Source: Mycobacteriaceae bacterium
Lineage (GTDB): Bacteria; Actinomycetota; Actinomycetes; Mycobacteriales; Mycobacteriaceae
Assembly: GCA_017882745.1 (NCBI GenBank)
Contig: JADGOX010000229.1
Coordinates: 1 to 50,271 of the forward strand
Reading direction: 5' to 3'
DNA length: 50,271 nucleotides
Of the stretch, positions 10,874 to 46,883 are shown one piece after another; position 1 is the stretch's first letter; the number at the start of each line of letters is the position of its first letter. The notes beneath the pieces were generated by a model. It was not told the DNA's origin and did not search any database. It saw only the letters and a list, made by a program, of their open reading frames with translations. The translations under genes were made by a program, and so were the position numbers.

Positions 10874-11397
10874 GCGGAGTCTCCATCCTTCTTGTCAGCT
10901 GTTGAGGCACCTGCATGGGCAGAGACGGCCCGCACCCAATCGGGATAGGCGGACTTGTCGTCGGCCCGAAAGCCGGTGTCGACCATCCCGTCACCCACCT
11001 GCCAGCGCAACACCAGCAGACCGTCCTTGGTCATCACCTTGCCTGCCAGCCGGTAGTCGGTCCGTGCGCTGTCGATCGACGCCTGCGGAATCCAGATGCT
11101 GCTGGCACCGTGCCGGCTGAGCAGCACGCCGTCCGCGTGCAGTGTCAGCTTCGCGCTGGCCCGATGGCCGATGTCCCCCACCGCCACACGGTCCTGCCAG
11201 TTCCCCGCAATGGCGCTGCCCACGTACAGGCCCGTCGCCGGACCGAGGACGACTGAACCCGGATCGGTCGTCGGCACGGGGAACTCGCCGAGCGCCGCAC
11301 TCTGCCGTCGCCCACGACGCTGCCATCCGCGGTACATCCCCCAGACCGCGAGCACGAGCACCGCCAGCACCAGGAAGCTCAACAGGACTCGTGTCAT
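10870..11397 (-). CDS. PH-like domain membrane protein embedded in the pyr operon
   Basis: Function unknown. The 175-residue protein starts with a single transmembrane helix (about residues 4-20, [18 protein letters not shown]), then a basic stop-transfer stretch ([10 protein letters not shown]). A soluble domain follows with short beta-rich segments: [57 protein letters not shown]. This corresponds to the PH-like family protein found between pyrC and carA in mycobacteria (Rv1382 position). The tail is hydrophilic (DKKDGDSA). It shares one base with the pyrC stop (TGATG) and 4 nt with carA, so its expression must be tied to the pathway. No catalytic motif is visible; a membrane-tethered structural or regulatory role is only a guess. 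Confidence 0.8.
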
Positions 11398-12710
11398 CAG
11401 TCGTGCACCGTTCTCGTGATCTGTCCGTGGTGGGCCGTGATCCGTCCGCGCAGCACCGTGGTGACTACGCGGGCGGGCAGGGTCATGCCCTCGTATGGGG
11501 TGTTGGCGGCAATGCTGGCCAGCTCCGCGCCACGCACGGTCCAGCTGGCGTCAGGGTCGATGAGGACCAGATTCGCCGGCTCCCCCACCTCCAGCGGGCG
11601 GCCGTGATCAGGCAGACCGGCGATGGCCGCGGGACGCTCGCTCATCACGCGCGCCACGCCACGCCAGTCAAGCAAGCCGGTGCGCACCATCGTCTCGGTC
11701 ACCACCGACAGCGCTGTCTGCAGACCGAGCATGCCCGGACGAGCCGCCGCAAACTCGCAGTCCTTGTCCTGCGGGGCGTGCGGAGCGTGGTCGGTGGCCA
11801 CACAGTCGATCACTCCCGCGGCCAGCGCCGCTCGCAGTGCAGCGATATCGCTGTGCTCGCGCAAGGGCGGGTTCACCTTGTTCACCGGGTCGTAGTCGAC
11901 CAGCCGGGAGTCGTCGAGGAACAGGTGATGCGGAGTGACCTCAGCGCTGACGTGGATGCCCGCCCGCTTGGCGCCTCGCAGGATCTCAGCAGTGCCTGCG
12001 GTGGACACGTGACACACGTGCAGGCGTGCACCGGCGTCGCGGGCCAGCAGGCAGTCACGGGCCACGATGGCCTCCTCCGCTGCCCGTGGCCAGCCGGCCA
12101 GGCCGAGCCGTGCTGCGGTGGGTCCCTCGTGGGCCTGGGCCCCCCCGGGTTGACCGCCACCGGTCAGTCGGGGCTCCTCGGCGTGTTGGGCCACCAGCAC
12201 GTCGAGCGCGCTGGCGTACTCGAGTGCCCGGCGCATCAGGAGCGGATCGGCCACGCAGTGTCCGTCGTCGGAGAAGATCCGAACGCCGCTGGCAGCCAGC
12301 GTGCCCAGCTCGGCCAGCTGCTCGCCACGCAGCCCGAGCGTGATCGCACCGACAGGGTGCACATCGACGAGCCCGGCCCGGGCGCCGAGTCCGCGCACGT
12401 GCTCGGTGACCACCACCGTGTCGGCAACCGGGTCGGTGTTGGCCATGGCGAACACTGCGGTGTAGCCGCCGAGTGCGGCGGCCGCCGAGCCGGTCGCGAT
12501 GGTCTCGGTGTCCTCTCTGCCCGGCTCGCGCAGATGGGTGTGCAGGTCGACGAAACCGGGCAGGGCCACCAGCCCTACACCGTCGATCACCTCGGCGTCC
12601 TCGGGTGCCACGAGAGAGCCGCCGAGCTGCTTGATCTCTCCGTCGTCGAGGAGCATGTCGGTGGGCTCACCTTCGCCGTACAACCGGACACCGGTGATCA
12701 GCACGCTCAT
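11397..12710 (-). CDS. pyrC: Dihydroorotase (class I)
   Basis: Cyclises carbamoyl-aspartate to dihydroorotate. At 437 residues it matches the class I amidohydrolases. The metal-binding HxH lies in [10 protein letters not shown] (H57, H59). Downstream are the [10 protein letters not shown] and EVTPHHLFL histidine segments and the ATDHAPHA aspartate motif. The ATG at 12710 overlaps pyrB by 4 nt. Third gene of the operon. Confidence 0.97.
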
Positions 12711-13681
12711 TCGTTCGCTCCCTGTTCTGATCCTGTGAGGCCGGAGCCGGCGAGCAGCTGGTAGAGCACGGCCATCCGGATGTGCACCCCGTTGCGCACC
12801 TGGGCCAGCACCGCCGTGCGTGGAGAGTCGGCCACTGCCGAGGTGATCTCCATCCCACGCACCATCGGACCGGGATGCAGCACAACAGCGTGCTCCTCGA
12901 GCAGCGCCATCCGCCGCTCGGACAGCCCGTAGCGGACGGCGTACTCCCTGGCGGAGGGAAAGAACCCACCGTGCATCCGCTCGGCCTGCACCCGCAACAT
13001 CAGCACGGCGTCCACCGCAGCCAGCTCGGCGTCGAGGTCGTGGGACACGCTCACCGCGCCGGACTGCCCACCCCAGTGGGCAACCCCGTGCGGCATCAAA
13101 GTGGGAGGGGCCACGACCACGACGTCCGCGCCCAGCGTGCTCAGCAGGGTTGCGTCGCTGCGGGCGACCCTGCTGTGCAGCACGTCGCCGACGATGGCCA
13201 CCCGGCGCCCGGCCAGGCTGCCCAGTCGCTGACGCAGCGTCAGTGCGTCGAGCAAGGCCTGCGTCGGATGCTCATGGGTGCCGTCACCTGCATTCACCAC
13301 TGCCGGACCATCACCGCCCGCTGCTGTCCACGCAGCGATGCGGTGCGCCGCCCCGGACGCAGGGTGCCGCACGATCAGGCAGTCCGCGCCAGCGGCACGC
13401 AGCGTCAGCGCGGTGTCCCGCAGCGACTCGCCCTTGGACGCCGAGGAGCCCTTGGCGCTGACGTTGACCACGTCAGCACTCATCCACTTGCCTGCCACTT
13501 CGAAGGAGACCCGGGTGCGGGTGGAGTCCTCGAAGAAGACGGTCATGACGGTCCGCCCACGCAGGGTCGGCAGCTTGCGCACCTCTCGGCCGAGTAGTGC
13601 CTGCTCGAAGGCTTCGGCATCGTCCATGATCGAGATCGCGGCGTCGGCAGTGAGGTCGGCGGTGGAGAGCAGGTGCCTCAT
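12707..13681 (-). CDS. pyrB: Aspartate carbamoyltransferase catalytic subunit
   Basis: Transfers the carbamoyl group to aspartate, the committed step of pyrimidine synthesis. It is 324 residues. The carbamoyl-phosphate motif STRTR is at residues 53-57 within [16 protein letters not shown]. The 80s loop SASKGES and the HPTQALLD motif also fit. No pyrI regulatory chain accompanies it, which is usual where PyrR controls the operon. It overlaps pyrR and pyrC by 4 nt each. Confidence 0.97.
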
Positions 13682-14289
13682 CCATGCACTCCTGGCGGGT
13701 GGGGTGTACGCAGCAGGACGGCATCACGCCCGTCGAGCTCGGTGAGCAGCACCGCCACATCCTCGCTGCGCGCAGTGGGAATGTTCTTGCCCACATAGTC
13801 GGCGCGCAATGGCAGCTCACGATGCCCGCGGTCGACGAGGACGGCGAGCTGAACAATCCGGGGACGACCGAGGTCGCGCAGCGCGTCCAGGGCGGCACGC
13901 ACGGTGCGACCAGAGAACAGCACGTCATCGACGAGCACGACCAGAGCGTCGTCGACACCCCCAGCGGGAACCGAGGTCTGTCCCAGCGCCCGTGAAGGCT
14001 GCCTGCGCAGGTCGTCTCGGTACAGAGTGGTGTCGAGGAAACCGAGATCGGGGCGCACCCCGGAGAACTCGGCGATGCGATCCACCAGGCGGACCGCGAG
14101 TGTGCTGCCACGAGTGGGAATGCCGAGGAGGACCACCCGGGGAGCATCGGGTGCGTCGAGCGCGGTCTTCTCGATCAGCTGGTGGGCGATCCGGGCCACA
14201 GTACGAGCTACATCGGCCGAACTGAGCAGCTCTCGCTCAGTCGCGCTGTTTTCGCCCTGCGGACCGACCGCCTCGGGCGCCTTTGGCAT
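13678..14289 (-). CDS. pyrR: Pyrimidine operon regulator / uracil phosphoribosyltransferase PyrR
   Basis: Bifunctional RNA-binding attenuation or translation regulator that senses UMP and has uracil phosphoribosyltransferase activity. It is 203 residues. The type I PRTase fold is shown by [15 protein letters not shown] and by the PRPP loop [14 protein letters not shown] (about 116-129); the DTTLYRDDL segment is a PyrR hallmark. The ATG at 14289 is supported by a strong AAGGAGG at 14302-14296; the frame is open upstream to 15135 but that region overlaps bldD and nusB on other frames. First gene of the pyr operon. A hairpin of the PyrR-binding type abuts its Shine-Dalgarno, implying autogenous control. 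Confidence 0.96.
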
Positions 14290-14295
14290 CCGAGA

Positions 14296-14445: not shown

Positions 14446-14937
14446 ATGTCTGACTACGCTAAAGCTCTCGGCGCGCGACTTCGCGATGTTCGACAGCGCG
14501 AGGGGTTGTCTCTGCACCGAGTGGAACAGAAGTCCGACGGTCGGTGGAAAGCCGTGGTGGTCGGTTCCTACGAGCGCGGTGACCGGGCCGTCACCGTGCA
14601 CAAGCTGGCCGAACTGGCGCGTTTCTACGGTGTGCCGCTGAGCGAGCTCCTTCCGCCGGACGACCTCGGCGCCATCGAAGGTGTGGTCGCACCCATCGTG
14701 ATCAACCTCGAGCGTCTTCGTGAGATGCCTGAGGAGGAAATCGGCCCGATGATCCGCTACGCCGAGGAGATCGCGCGCCACCGCGGGGAGCACGGAACCT
14801 TGCTTCAGGTCCGCTCCGCGGACGTCGACACAATGTCCGAGCTCTGCGCGATGACCCGCGCCGATCTCGTCAGCCGACTGGTGGCTGCGGGTGTGCTCGC
14901 GGCAGGCGTCGCGAGTACACCCGCAACCGCGAGGTAG
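14446..14937 (+). CDS. bldD: BldD-family XRE-type transcriptional regulator
   Basis: Homologue of BldD, in Streptomyces the c-di-GMP-responsive master repressor of development. It is 163 residues. The N-terminal DNA-binding half is very well conserved: [20 protein letters not shown], then [20 protein letters not shown] and [17 protein letters not shown] (residues 4-70). The C-terminal c-di-GMP domain is more divergent: where BldD has RGD-X8-RQDD, this protein has RGE (113-115), seven residues, then RSAD (123-126). Ligand binding therefore cannot be assumed. It is divergent from pyrR and convergent with nusB, the same nusB-bldD-pyrR order as in Streptomyces. An AGAAGGG purine stretch precedes the ATG. 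Confidence 0.88.
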
Positions 14938-14944
14938 AGCCCGG

Positions 14945-14986
14945 GCTTGAGCCCTGGACCGGCCGCGGCCGGTCCAGGGCTCAAGC
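14945..14986. terminator. 42-bp perfect palindrome, bidirectional terminator between bldD and nusB
   Basis: The arms 14945-14965 and 14966-14986 are exact reverse complements (GCTTGAGCCCTGGACCGGCC and onward, centre GCGGCC). It begins 8 nt after the bldD stop and includes the nusB stop codon TGA (14983-14981). In RNA from either strand it folds into a long GC-rich hairpin, with a very tight central loop or partial opening. There is no U-tract, which is common for actinobacterial terminators. Its position between convergent genes supports the terminator role. Confidence 0.75.
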
Positions 14987-15589
14987 GTCGGCGTCGTGTT
15001 GCTGCTGTTGCGCCGGGACCTGTTGCACCGGGACTGCGGCCGCGGCCGCGCGCACCTGGGGCGCGACCAGCACAACCTGACCGAGCACGCCGTTGACGAA
15101 CGCGGGCGAGTCGTCGGTGGACAGCTGCTTCGCAAGCTCCACGGCTTCGTCTACGGCCACCACCGGCGGAACGTCGGTGGCATGAAAGAGTTCCCACACG
15201 GCGACCCGGAGCACCGCCCGGTCCACTGCCGGCAGCCGAGCGAGCGTCCACCCGTGAAGGTGAGCCGCGATGACCTCGTCGAGCCGGTCGAGGTTCTCTG
15301 CAACCCCGTTCACCAAGGTGAGCGTGTACTCGTTGACCGGAGCGACCGAGGGGTCGTCAACCGCCATTCGCGCGCGCTCCGTGGCGATTCCCACCGGGTC
15401 GACATCACGGGCTTCCGCCTCGAACATGAAGTCGACGGCACGTTTGCGCGCCTTGCGCCTGGCGCCGCCCTGCTTGCGGGCACGCTCGGGAGTCAACGAA
15501 ACGGTGCTGGTGTGGTTAGCGACCGTGTGGTCGACCAGCTCGTGCTCGGCAGGCGGCTGCACTGACTCATTTCCAGGTGTGGTGCTCAC
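14981..15589 (-). CDS. nusB: Transcription antitermination factor NusB
   Basis: Helical RNA-binding factor that with NusE (S10) binds boxA in rRNA leaders. It is 202 residues, longer than the roughly 150-residue norm because of a polar N-terminal extension (about 1-40) and a glutamine-rich tail ([12 protein letters not shown]). Core motifs: [69 protein letters not shown] split over the second half. The GTG start at 15589 directly abuts the efp stop, so the two are coupled. Its 3' end lies inside the palindromic terminator. Confidence 0.95.
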
Positions 15590-16153
15590 TCAGGAGTTCA
15601 CACGGCCCAGGTAGCGGCTGTCGCGGGTGTCGACCTTGAGCTTGTCCCCGGTGTTGATGAACAACGGGACGGCGATCTCGTAGCCTGTCTCCAAAGTCGC
15701 CGGCTTCGTGCCGCCGGTTGAGCGGTCGCCCTGCAGGCCCGGGTCGGTGTGCTGCACCACGAGCTCGACGGCAACCGGGAGCTCCACGTACAGCGGAATA
15801 CCCTCGTTGAACGCGACCTGCACGGTCATGTTCTCGAGCATGAAGTTTGCCCCGTCGCCGACGGTCGTGCCGTTGATGTAGTGCTGCTCGAAGTCCTCGG
15901 AATCCATGAAGACGTAGTCCTCACCGTCGCGGTACAGGTACGTCATGCTCCGGCGGTCGACCGTCGCGGTCTCCACCTTCACGCCCGCGTTGAACGTCTT
16001 GTCGTTGACCTTGCCCGTCAGCACGTTCTTCAGCGTGGAGCGGACGAAGGCCGGCCCCTTGCCCGGCTTGACGTGCTGGAAGTCGGTGATCGTCCAGAGC
16101 TGGTTGTCGATCTTGAGGACCAGCCCGTTCTTGAAGTCGCTTGTGGATGCCAT
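15590..16153 (-). CDS. efp: Elongation factor P
   Basis: Relieves ribosome stalling at polyproline. It is 187 residues with three beta-barrel domains of normal size. The functional loop of domain I reads PGKGP (30-34) with Lys32 at the tip; this symmetrical loop is known in actinobacteria as a type active without lysine modification, and fittingly no epmA/epmB or earP gene is in the window. ATG at 16153 chosen over an upstream in-frame start at 16207 because [20 protein letters not shown] is the family N-terminus and a GGCGGAG lies in front. Followed immediately by nusB. Confidence 0.97.
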
Positions 16154-16225
16154 GTGGGCTCCGCCTCTCTTGGTTCTACGGTGCGTTGCGCCCCGGCCGG
16201 GAGCCACACGCGTGCGGGCGTGCGC

Positions 16226-45583: not shown

Positions 45584-45748
45584 ATGAAGACGTTCGCTTC
45601 AGGCGATGTGGTGCACGGTTGTGACGCAAGATGCGCCTGTGCGGTCGATGACGAGATCCTGGCCGGCCCTGCCCAGCGCAGGATGGCGCTGCGCAGACTG
45701 CCCAGCGCCGGTGAGCTCTCAGGCCGCACGGACATAGTCGTTGTCTGA
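45584..45748 (+). CDS. Short DUF1059-like ORF, C-terminus divergent
   Basis: 54 residues, starting MKTFASGDVVHGCDA and VDDEILAG. This resembles the N-terminus of DUF1059 small metal-binding proteins (typically MKxFxCGDVVPGCD..., about 55-60 residues). The first conserved cysteine is Ser here and the proline is His; the second half (GPAQRRMALRRLPSAGE) does not follow the family, so it may be a decayed or diverged copy. A GAGAGGA lies upstream of the ATG. Its stop overlaps the TTG start of the EAL gene by 8 nt. Confidence 0.5.
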   Translation: MKTFASGDVVHGCDARCACAVDDEILAGPAQRRMALRRLPSAGELSGRTDIVVV

Positions 45749-46883
45749 CAAAATCTCTGCGCTGCGTTCGTTGAAAGACCCGGTCGACTGGCCGTCATTG
45801 CTACGGTCGGCACTCACCGGCGAAGGCGTGGCCTCGGCGTATCAGCCGATCGTCGATATCACCCGTGCCACTGTGGTCGGTTACGAAGCCCTTGCGCGAT
45901 TCCCCGGATACCCGATCAGCGACCCTGAACGGTGGTTCGACGCCGCCGATCGGCACGGCTGCGGTGCGGCACTTCAAGCGGTCGCCTTGCGCTGTGCGCT
46001 CGCTGAGCGCACAGCACTCCCCCCGAACTGCTTCCTCTCGGTCAACATCGGACCCGAAGTGCTTTCCTCACCCAAGGTGCGCGAGGTCTGGGGTGACGTC
46101 GGCGACATGTCTGGAGTGATCGTCGAACTGACCGAGCACGCGCGTATCGACTCGTACGGCGAACTCCAGGCTGACTTCGCACGCCTGCGCGCGGCCGGCG
46201 CACTGCTGGCCGTCGACGATGTCGGATCCGGTTACGCCGGGCTGACCCACCTCCTCGCGCTGCGCCCGGAAATGATCAAGCTCGACCGCGCCCTGATCGA
46301 TGGAATCGACCGCGACGAGGCCAAGCGCGGGCTCGTCGAGATGATCGGCACCTTCGCCGCCCGCATGGACGGATGGATACTCGCCGAAGGCATCGAGCGC
46401 GCCGAGGAACTCAGTGTCATCGCTGAGCTCGGGGTGCCACTCGCGCAGGGCTACTACCTGGGCCGGCCCGCACCCCAATGGACGAGCCTCAACGCAGAGG
46501 CCGAACGCACCCTCGTCGAGTGCGCAACGATGCGCTCAGCGGACACCCTGCGTGGCCGCTTGGAGCATCCGCCCGTCGTCACCGACCGCAATGGCATCGC
46601 CGCGGCGTTCTCAGTCGATGGTGTTGATCTCGTCGTCCTGCAGGACAATCACGACCGTCCCCTTGCAGTGATTACGGAGCGTGATGCCCCCGACAATGCC
46701 GCAGCCACCGCCCTCAAGGTCAACGTCGACACCCCCCTCGCCGACGCGGCGCTGCGCGCCATCACCCGTTCGCCAGCAGAATGGGCAACACCGCTGCTCT
46801 GCACAGACAATGCTGGCCGATACGTCGGTATCGTCCGGATCCAACGCATCCTGCACGCTCTCGCGACGCGTAGTACGAACTGA
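45741..46883 (+). CDS. EAL-domain c-di-GMP phosphodiesterase with C-terminal CBS-like region
   Basis: Predicted cytosolic enzyme opening c-di-GMP to pGpG. 380 residues, no membrane helix or GGDEF domain. The catalytic set appears complete: EALARF (Glu49), Asn102 in SVNIGPE, ELTE (Glu129), DDVGSGY (Asp159, Asp160), Lys180 in MIKLDRAL, AEGIE (Glu216) and QGYYLGRP (Gln236). Residues about 270-375 look like a CBS pair (PPVVTDRNGIAAAFSVDGVD; PLLCTDNAGRYVGIVRIQRIL), a possible nucleotide sensor. TTG start at 45741 is the first start after the in-frame stop TAG at 45735. It overlaps the DUF1059-like ORF, suggesting coupled translation. Confidence 0.88.
   Translation: MSDKISALRSLKDPVDWPSLLRSALTGEGVASAYQPIVDITRATVVGYEALARFPGYPISDPERWFDAADRHGCGAALQAVALRCALAERTALPPNCFLSVNIGPEVLSSPKVREVWGDVGDMSGVIVELTEHARIDSYGELQADFARLRAAGALLAVDDVGSGYAGLTHLLALRPEMIKLDRALIDGIDRDEAKRGLVEMIGTFAARMDGWILAEGIERAEELSVIAELGVPLAQGYYLGRPAPQWTSLNAEAERTLVECATMRSADTLRGRLEHPPVVTDRNGIAAAFSVDGVDLVVLQDNHDRPLAVITERDAPDNAAATALKVNVDTPLADAALRAITRSPAEWATPLLCTDNAGRYVGIVRIQRILHALATRSTN

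Follow-up and report, generated by a model that had tools for sequence, protein, structure and literature searches.

A BldD ortholog with an altered c-di-GMP site in a small genus of Mycobacteriaceae

BldD is a bacterial master regulator that ordinarily depends on a tetramer of c-di-GMP to dimerize and bind DNA. The Streptomyces protein grips this tetramer through the signature RxD-X8-RxxD, with further contacts from K84 and R130 (to the phosphates), I110, N118 and S123 (PMC4151990). The founding paper reported the c-di-GMP-reading residues to be conserved in all BldD homologs and inferred that BldD-(c-di-GMP) control is general (PMC4151990). The window analyzed here, a stretch of 50,271 nucleotides from a Mycobacteriaceae bacterium (GenBank assembly GCA_017882745.1, contig JADGOX010000229.1), carries a bldD gene whose product departs from this signature, raising the question of whether the protein still works through the ligand. 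A preliminary description of the DNA named three outcomes, a different mode of c-di-GMP binding, another ligand, or a constitutive protein, and chose none of them; the evidence assembled here favors an uncoupling from the c-di-GMP tetramer.

The bldD locus and its distribution

The window gene lies in the conserved pyrBC/pyrR-bldD-nusB-efp locus and is a genuine bldD ortholog (Table 1): the same pyr and nusB-efp genes flank bldD in the sister species, the one further member of the genus with a sequenced genome, and in G011, the family's second genus with a bldD gene. Flanking products of the sister species are 92% (PyrR), 85% (NusB) and 93% (EFP) identical to those of the window, and the bldD reading frame is unbroken in both species of the genus. 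The protein scores 53 bits with the Pfam model BldD-like_C (cut-off 27) and 186.3 bits with the NCBIfam BldD equivalog model, the latter below its 250-bit cut-off despite the low E value. A horizontal origin of the gene was considered and is not supported, as the flanks fit the locus and an AU test does not reject the grouping with G011 (p=0.447), in a tree weakened by long branches. Between the convergent bldD and nusB genes lies a perfect palindrome of 42 bases (14945-14986; 21-base arms, no loop), the longest in the window, which overlaps the 3' end of nusB and has no T run; the sister species has a shorter repeat with 12-base arms at this junction. The palindrome is probably a two-way terminator, and a promoter and terminator scan of the bldD locus returned no match.

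Table 1. Features of the bldD region and the distant EAL gene, in window coordinates.
Feature	Coordinates	Strand	Basis
pyrC, after pyrB	11397-12710	-	ORF, named from sequence
pyrB, after pyrR	12707-13681	-	ORF, named from sequence
pyrR, divergent from bldD	13678-14290 (5' limit approximate)	-	ORF, named from sequence
bldD ortholog, 163 aa	14446-14937	+	Translation; PF21179 BldD-like_C, 3e-14; NF050110 BldD, 3.2e-55
N-terminal HTH DNA-binding domain, residues 2-70	14449-14655	+	phmmer to 2EWT, E 1.3e-29
Pro83, at the place of phosphate-contacting Lys84	14692-14694	+	Alignment; Lys84 contact from PMC4151990
BldD_C domain, residues 84-155, diverged, fold predicted intact	14695-14910	+	AlphaFold2; 5KHD match
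Motif 1 remnant R113-G114-E115 (Asp116 to Glu)	14782-14790	+	Translation, alignment
Spacer HGTLLQV, seven residues (canonical eight); Asn118 lost, Ser123 to Gln121	14791-14811	+	Alignment
Motif 2 R123-S124-A125-D126 (R and D kept)	14812-14823	+	Alignment
Asp128, at the place of phosphate-contacting Arg130 (charge reversal)	14827-14829	+	Alignment
nusB, convergent with bldD	14981-15589	-	ORF
efp, convergent with bldD	15590-16207 (first Met of EFP inside)	-	ORF
EAL-domain c-di-GMP phosphodiesterase, distant, not linked to bldD	45741-46883	+	PF00563, 3.9e-41

bldD was found in 3 of the 401 genomes of the window's family (2 of 31 genera), in 304 of 397 genomes sampled across the order and in 235 of 394 sampled across the class, and it has been lost many times, Corynebacterineae included (PMC4255298). 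In G011 the same locus (L011) encodes a canonical RGDYNGKVLSIRAED protein, and among the genomes searched the altered signature is limited to the window's genus, represented by two species. No BldD-like copy with this signature was found in plasmids, phages or viral contigs. The sister species also encodes a BldD paralog, none being seen in the window genome (92% complete). This paralog (L314; G017:C1:638744-640675) shares the seven-residue spacing and adjoins a tRNA-Arg(CCT) gene, and the genes around it have a lower third-position GC than usual (0.75-0.84, where about 0.96 is typical), which would fit acquisition on a small island.

Residues of the c-di-GMP site

Translation bears out the reported signature RGE-X7-RSAD at residues 113-126, with the Asp-to-Glu change at position 116 (contacts are numbered as in Streptomyces BldD); the sister-species ortholog reads RGA-X7-RSAD and its paralog RGG-X7-RAAD. 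The spacer does have one residue less, as had been noted. In HMMER and MAFFT alignments to Streptomyces BldD alike, the residue is missing from the loop that follows motif 1; together with the predicted loop (5 residues from helix to strand versus 6), this rules out a counting artefact. A sequencing or frameshift artefact was rejected because the sister genome has the same spacing and RSAD.

The signature was compared across 265 aligned BldD-family proteins (272 hits from fetched genomes and loci, less 7 that were not BldD), a sample weighted towards relatives of the window. RxD-X8-RxxD is kept in 256 of the 265, even at 31-40% identity to the window protein, which puts the departure well outside chance. 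Besides the genus's own three proteins, the signature is broken in a single X9 form, by D116E and D116H within another family of the order, and in three remote paralogs. In this sample the X7 spacer occurs only in the window's genus. On whether the change is clade-wide, as the preliminary description had asked, the alignment divides: the X7 spacer, the loss of Asp116 and RSAD are genus-wide, while Glu at 116 is found in the window species alone, Ala taking its place in the sister species, and the rest of the order is without the change. The X9 form (L265, from G296) is canonical apart from its nine-residue spacer (RGDYSAGRTLTIRAED), so eight-residue spacing is not absolute. Several actinobacterial genomes of 1.2-2.2 Mb (L244-L261, family code f40) have one or two GGDEF domains each and BldDs that keep RxD-X8-RxxD at just 31-46% identity to the window, which suggests that BldD-c-di-GMP control reaches far beyond sporulating species.

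The description of the ligand site as altered was right but understated. Both orthologs of the genus lack five of the nine contacts (K84P, D116E/A, N118 deleted, S123Q, R130D) and keep R114, R125, D128 and I110, and the divergence extends to the whole C-terminal domain (CTD). In the two species the site carries a net charge of -1, versus +2 in 108 of 122 distinct canonical CTDs; none of those 122 departs from R114, D116, R125 or D128. The loss of a Gln and an Asp from motif 2 (RQDD to RSAD) is real but irrelevant, as the equivalents of Gln126 and Asp127 vary among canonical BldDs (RTED, RNED, RAED, RYED) and the working biosensor cdGreen2 was selected with RPAD as its motif 2 (PMC11082216). 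The tetramer clamp would be lost because the now acidic site lacks the Asp of motif 1, the Asn of the loop, Ser123 and the two basic residues that bind phosphate.

The signal itself is probably present. GGDEF domains number 8 in the window genome and 14 in the sister genome, and the c-di-GMP hydrolase gene pointed out 31 kb from bldD does encode an EAL protein with the expected catalytic EAL, N, E, DD, K, E and Q residues, although nothing beyond that distance ties it to bldD. Together, these domains indicate that c-di-GMP is probably made in these cells, and the deficit would then probably lie in BldD's canonical grip on c-di-GMP rather than in the signal.

The changes could in principle be tolerated, with a normal c-di-GMP tetramer bound at ordinary stoichiometry. 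Glu keeps a carboxylate at position 116 in the window species and is able to replace Asp in hydrogen bonding, a nine-residue loop is accommodated in an otherwise canonical BldD, and c-di-GMP synthesis domains are abundant. We nevertheless consider this very improbable, given that Ala, found at 116 in the sister species, is the substitution that traps a two-c-di-GMP intermediate (PDB 5TZF, 5TZG), and given the loss of both phosphate contacts in both orthologs and the flip in charge.

The C-terminal and DNA-binding domains

Between the window and the sister species, identity is 86% for NusB, 93% for EFP, 90% for the DNA-binding domain (DBD) and 54% for the CTD, whereas canonical pairs with NusB 75-90% identical have CTDs that are 86-100% identical. 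Compared with G011, NusB is 80% identical and the CTD 41%. At a DBD identity of about 0.84, none of 4545 canonical pairs has a CTD as diverged as that of the window from canonical members. The dN of the CTD is 0.345 (dS 0.763), about six times the 0.058 of the DBD; dS is saturated across the set, and NusB and EFP were used as clocks in place of dN/dS for comparison with canonical pairs. Judged from these values, the DBD is under strong purifying constraint. Within the window CTD, contacts are retained no oftener (4 of 8) than other conserved positions (13 of 26). Because dN of the CTD is below dS and the reading frame is intact, the protein would still be made and folded under some constraint.

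Residues 84-155 match solved BldD CTDs with E values of about 1e-8. The AlphaFold2 model of the window CTD (mean pLDDT 81.5, pTM 0.65) superimposes on 5KHD with Z 12.1 and rmsd 1.4 over 71 residues and on 5TZF with Z 12.5, and a canonical CTD modelled as a control from that alignment (pLDDT 87.2) has the same structural elements; the loop from the long helix to the second strand is one residue shorter in the window model. The window CTD is thus predicted to retain the BldD fold, but a common fold is no proof of common ligand binding.

The main rival explanation is that the protein holds a single c-di-GMP dimer on motif 2. R114, R125 and D128, three of the four guanine-reading residues, are present in both orthologs and the paralog, which is hard to square with a complete loss of ligand binding. 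5TZF and 5TZG, both structures of BldD CTD(D116A)-(c-di-GMP)2, rank with the closest structural matches to the window CTD, and the sister species naturally has their Ala at 116. According to PMC11082216, which cites Schumacher 2017, BldD is able to dimerize with one dimer bound, and the RPAD motif of cdGreen2 is functional (PMC11082216). Set against this, R130D reverses the phosphate contact beside motif 2, Pro stands at K84, neither Ser123 nor Asn118 is left, the site has a net acidic charge, and the CTD has diverged too broadly for a ligand interface that is still constrained; on balance we regard a single bound dimer as unlikely, if deserving of attention.

The site might instead have been reshaped for some other ligand or for a protein partner, with a new specificity set by RxADxD and the T-L-L strand. 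All three proteins of the genus share the T-L-L strand, RxAD and the Asp newly present at 130, and a CTD dN well below dS places the domain under some constraint. There are only three such sequences, however, one with a CTD 31% identical, the shared residues may merely hold the fold, and no search pointed to a pocket or ligand, which leaves this explanation improbable. Taken together, a natural BldD that carries a single c-di-GMP dimer by motif 2 only, or whose RxADxD site takes a new ligand, is a doubtful but appreciable possibility; if true, it would mean that the ligand stoichiometry of a tetramer-gated transcription factor can change in evolution.

The likeness of the DNA-binding half to Streptomyces BldD holds up (Table 1). 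Its HTH stretch of 19 residues is unchanged, just 4 highly conserved positions are altered, and it is 84% identical to canonical members. The strict BldD box TNAC(N5)GTNA is absent from the 200 bp upstream of bldD in the window and the sister species, against 103 of 180 bldD loci that have one (about 3 expected). Pseudonocardiaceae with a canonical BldD also have no upstream box, and a box at the gene itself is therefore not decisive. Whole-genome counts of the box are similar with and without BldD. A perfect box, TGACGCAGCGTCA, lies within pyrB at 13230-13242, and shuffled sequence yields box-like matches at least as often as the window does.

That the gene is a decaying remnant with little function left, heading for the loss that the rest of the family has completed, would fit its rarity there and the missing upstream box in both species. 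An intact reading frame in both species and the low dN of the DBD are unlike a dead gene, and we rate decay as the least probable of the explanations.

The reading we favor, with somewhat more confidence than doubt, is that the window protein is a BldD vertically inherited within a small genus that most likely binds DNA without the c-di-GMP tetramer clamp. Its HTH domain would still bind BldD-type operators as a dimer, and its CTD would keep the BldD fold and no longer build the clamp. Without the clamp, DNA binding would follow protein concentration and a weak DBD-DBD contact, not the cellular c-di-GMP level. The isolated DBD of Streptomyces BldD can be cross-linked as a dimer without c-di-GMP (PMC4151990), which makes ligand-free DNA binding at high concentration plausible. 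From these comparisons we infer the failure of tetramer binding, the c-di-GMP-independent DNA binding and the targets. Speaking for DNA binding without the clamp are the five lost contacts, the charge flip, the fast CTD beside a constrained DBD, and the canonical BldD of G011 at the same locus; speaking against it are the three surviving guanine-reading residues, a loop length that is not absolutely fixed, the ability of Glu to stand in for Asp, and the many GGDEF domains of both genomes. BldO was considered as a precedent for a ligand-free BldD relative and set aside, as it belongs to the MerR family.

Comparison with known BldD systems

The BldD type of regulator is already known, and what is new here is the variant. 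The genus would be a natural exception to the generality proposed in PMC4151990, with an ortholog at the native locus, an intact DNA-binding half and c-di-GMP enzymes still encoded. It offers a natural experiment on BldD's need of its ligand and on the sufficiency of the two-molecule intermediate, and on how a second-messenger switch uncouples before a family loses the regulator.

The window protein resembles Streptomyces BldD (S. venezuelae, S. coelicolor; PDB 2EWT, 4OAZ, 5KHD) in locus order, two-domain architecture, HTH, CTD fold and the equivalents of R114, R125 and D128. It differs in that K84, D116, N118, S123 and R130 are replaced or deleted, the spacer is 7 rather than 8, the charge of the site is reversed and the CTD is about 36% identical. 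The assembly intermediate in 5TZF and 5TZG likewise lacks the motif 1 Asp and keeps the R and D of motif 2, and the sister species has exactly its Ala; the engineered mutant, however, keeps K84, N118, S123 and R130, all lost in the window protein. The BldD of G011 belongs to the same family and the same locus, but reads RGD-X8-RAED with all contacts conserved. Two diverged BldDs from another family of the order (L215 and L221) have independently changed the motif 1 Asp (to Glu in RGE and His in RGH), yet unlike the window BldD they retain the spacer of 8 and Lys/Arg at 84.
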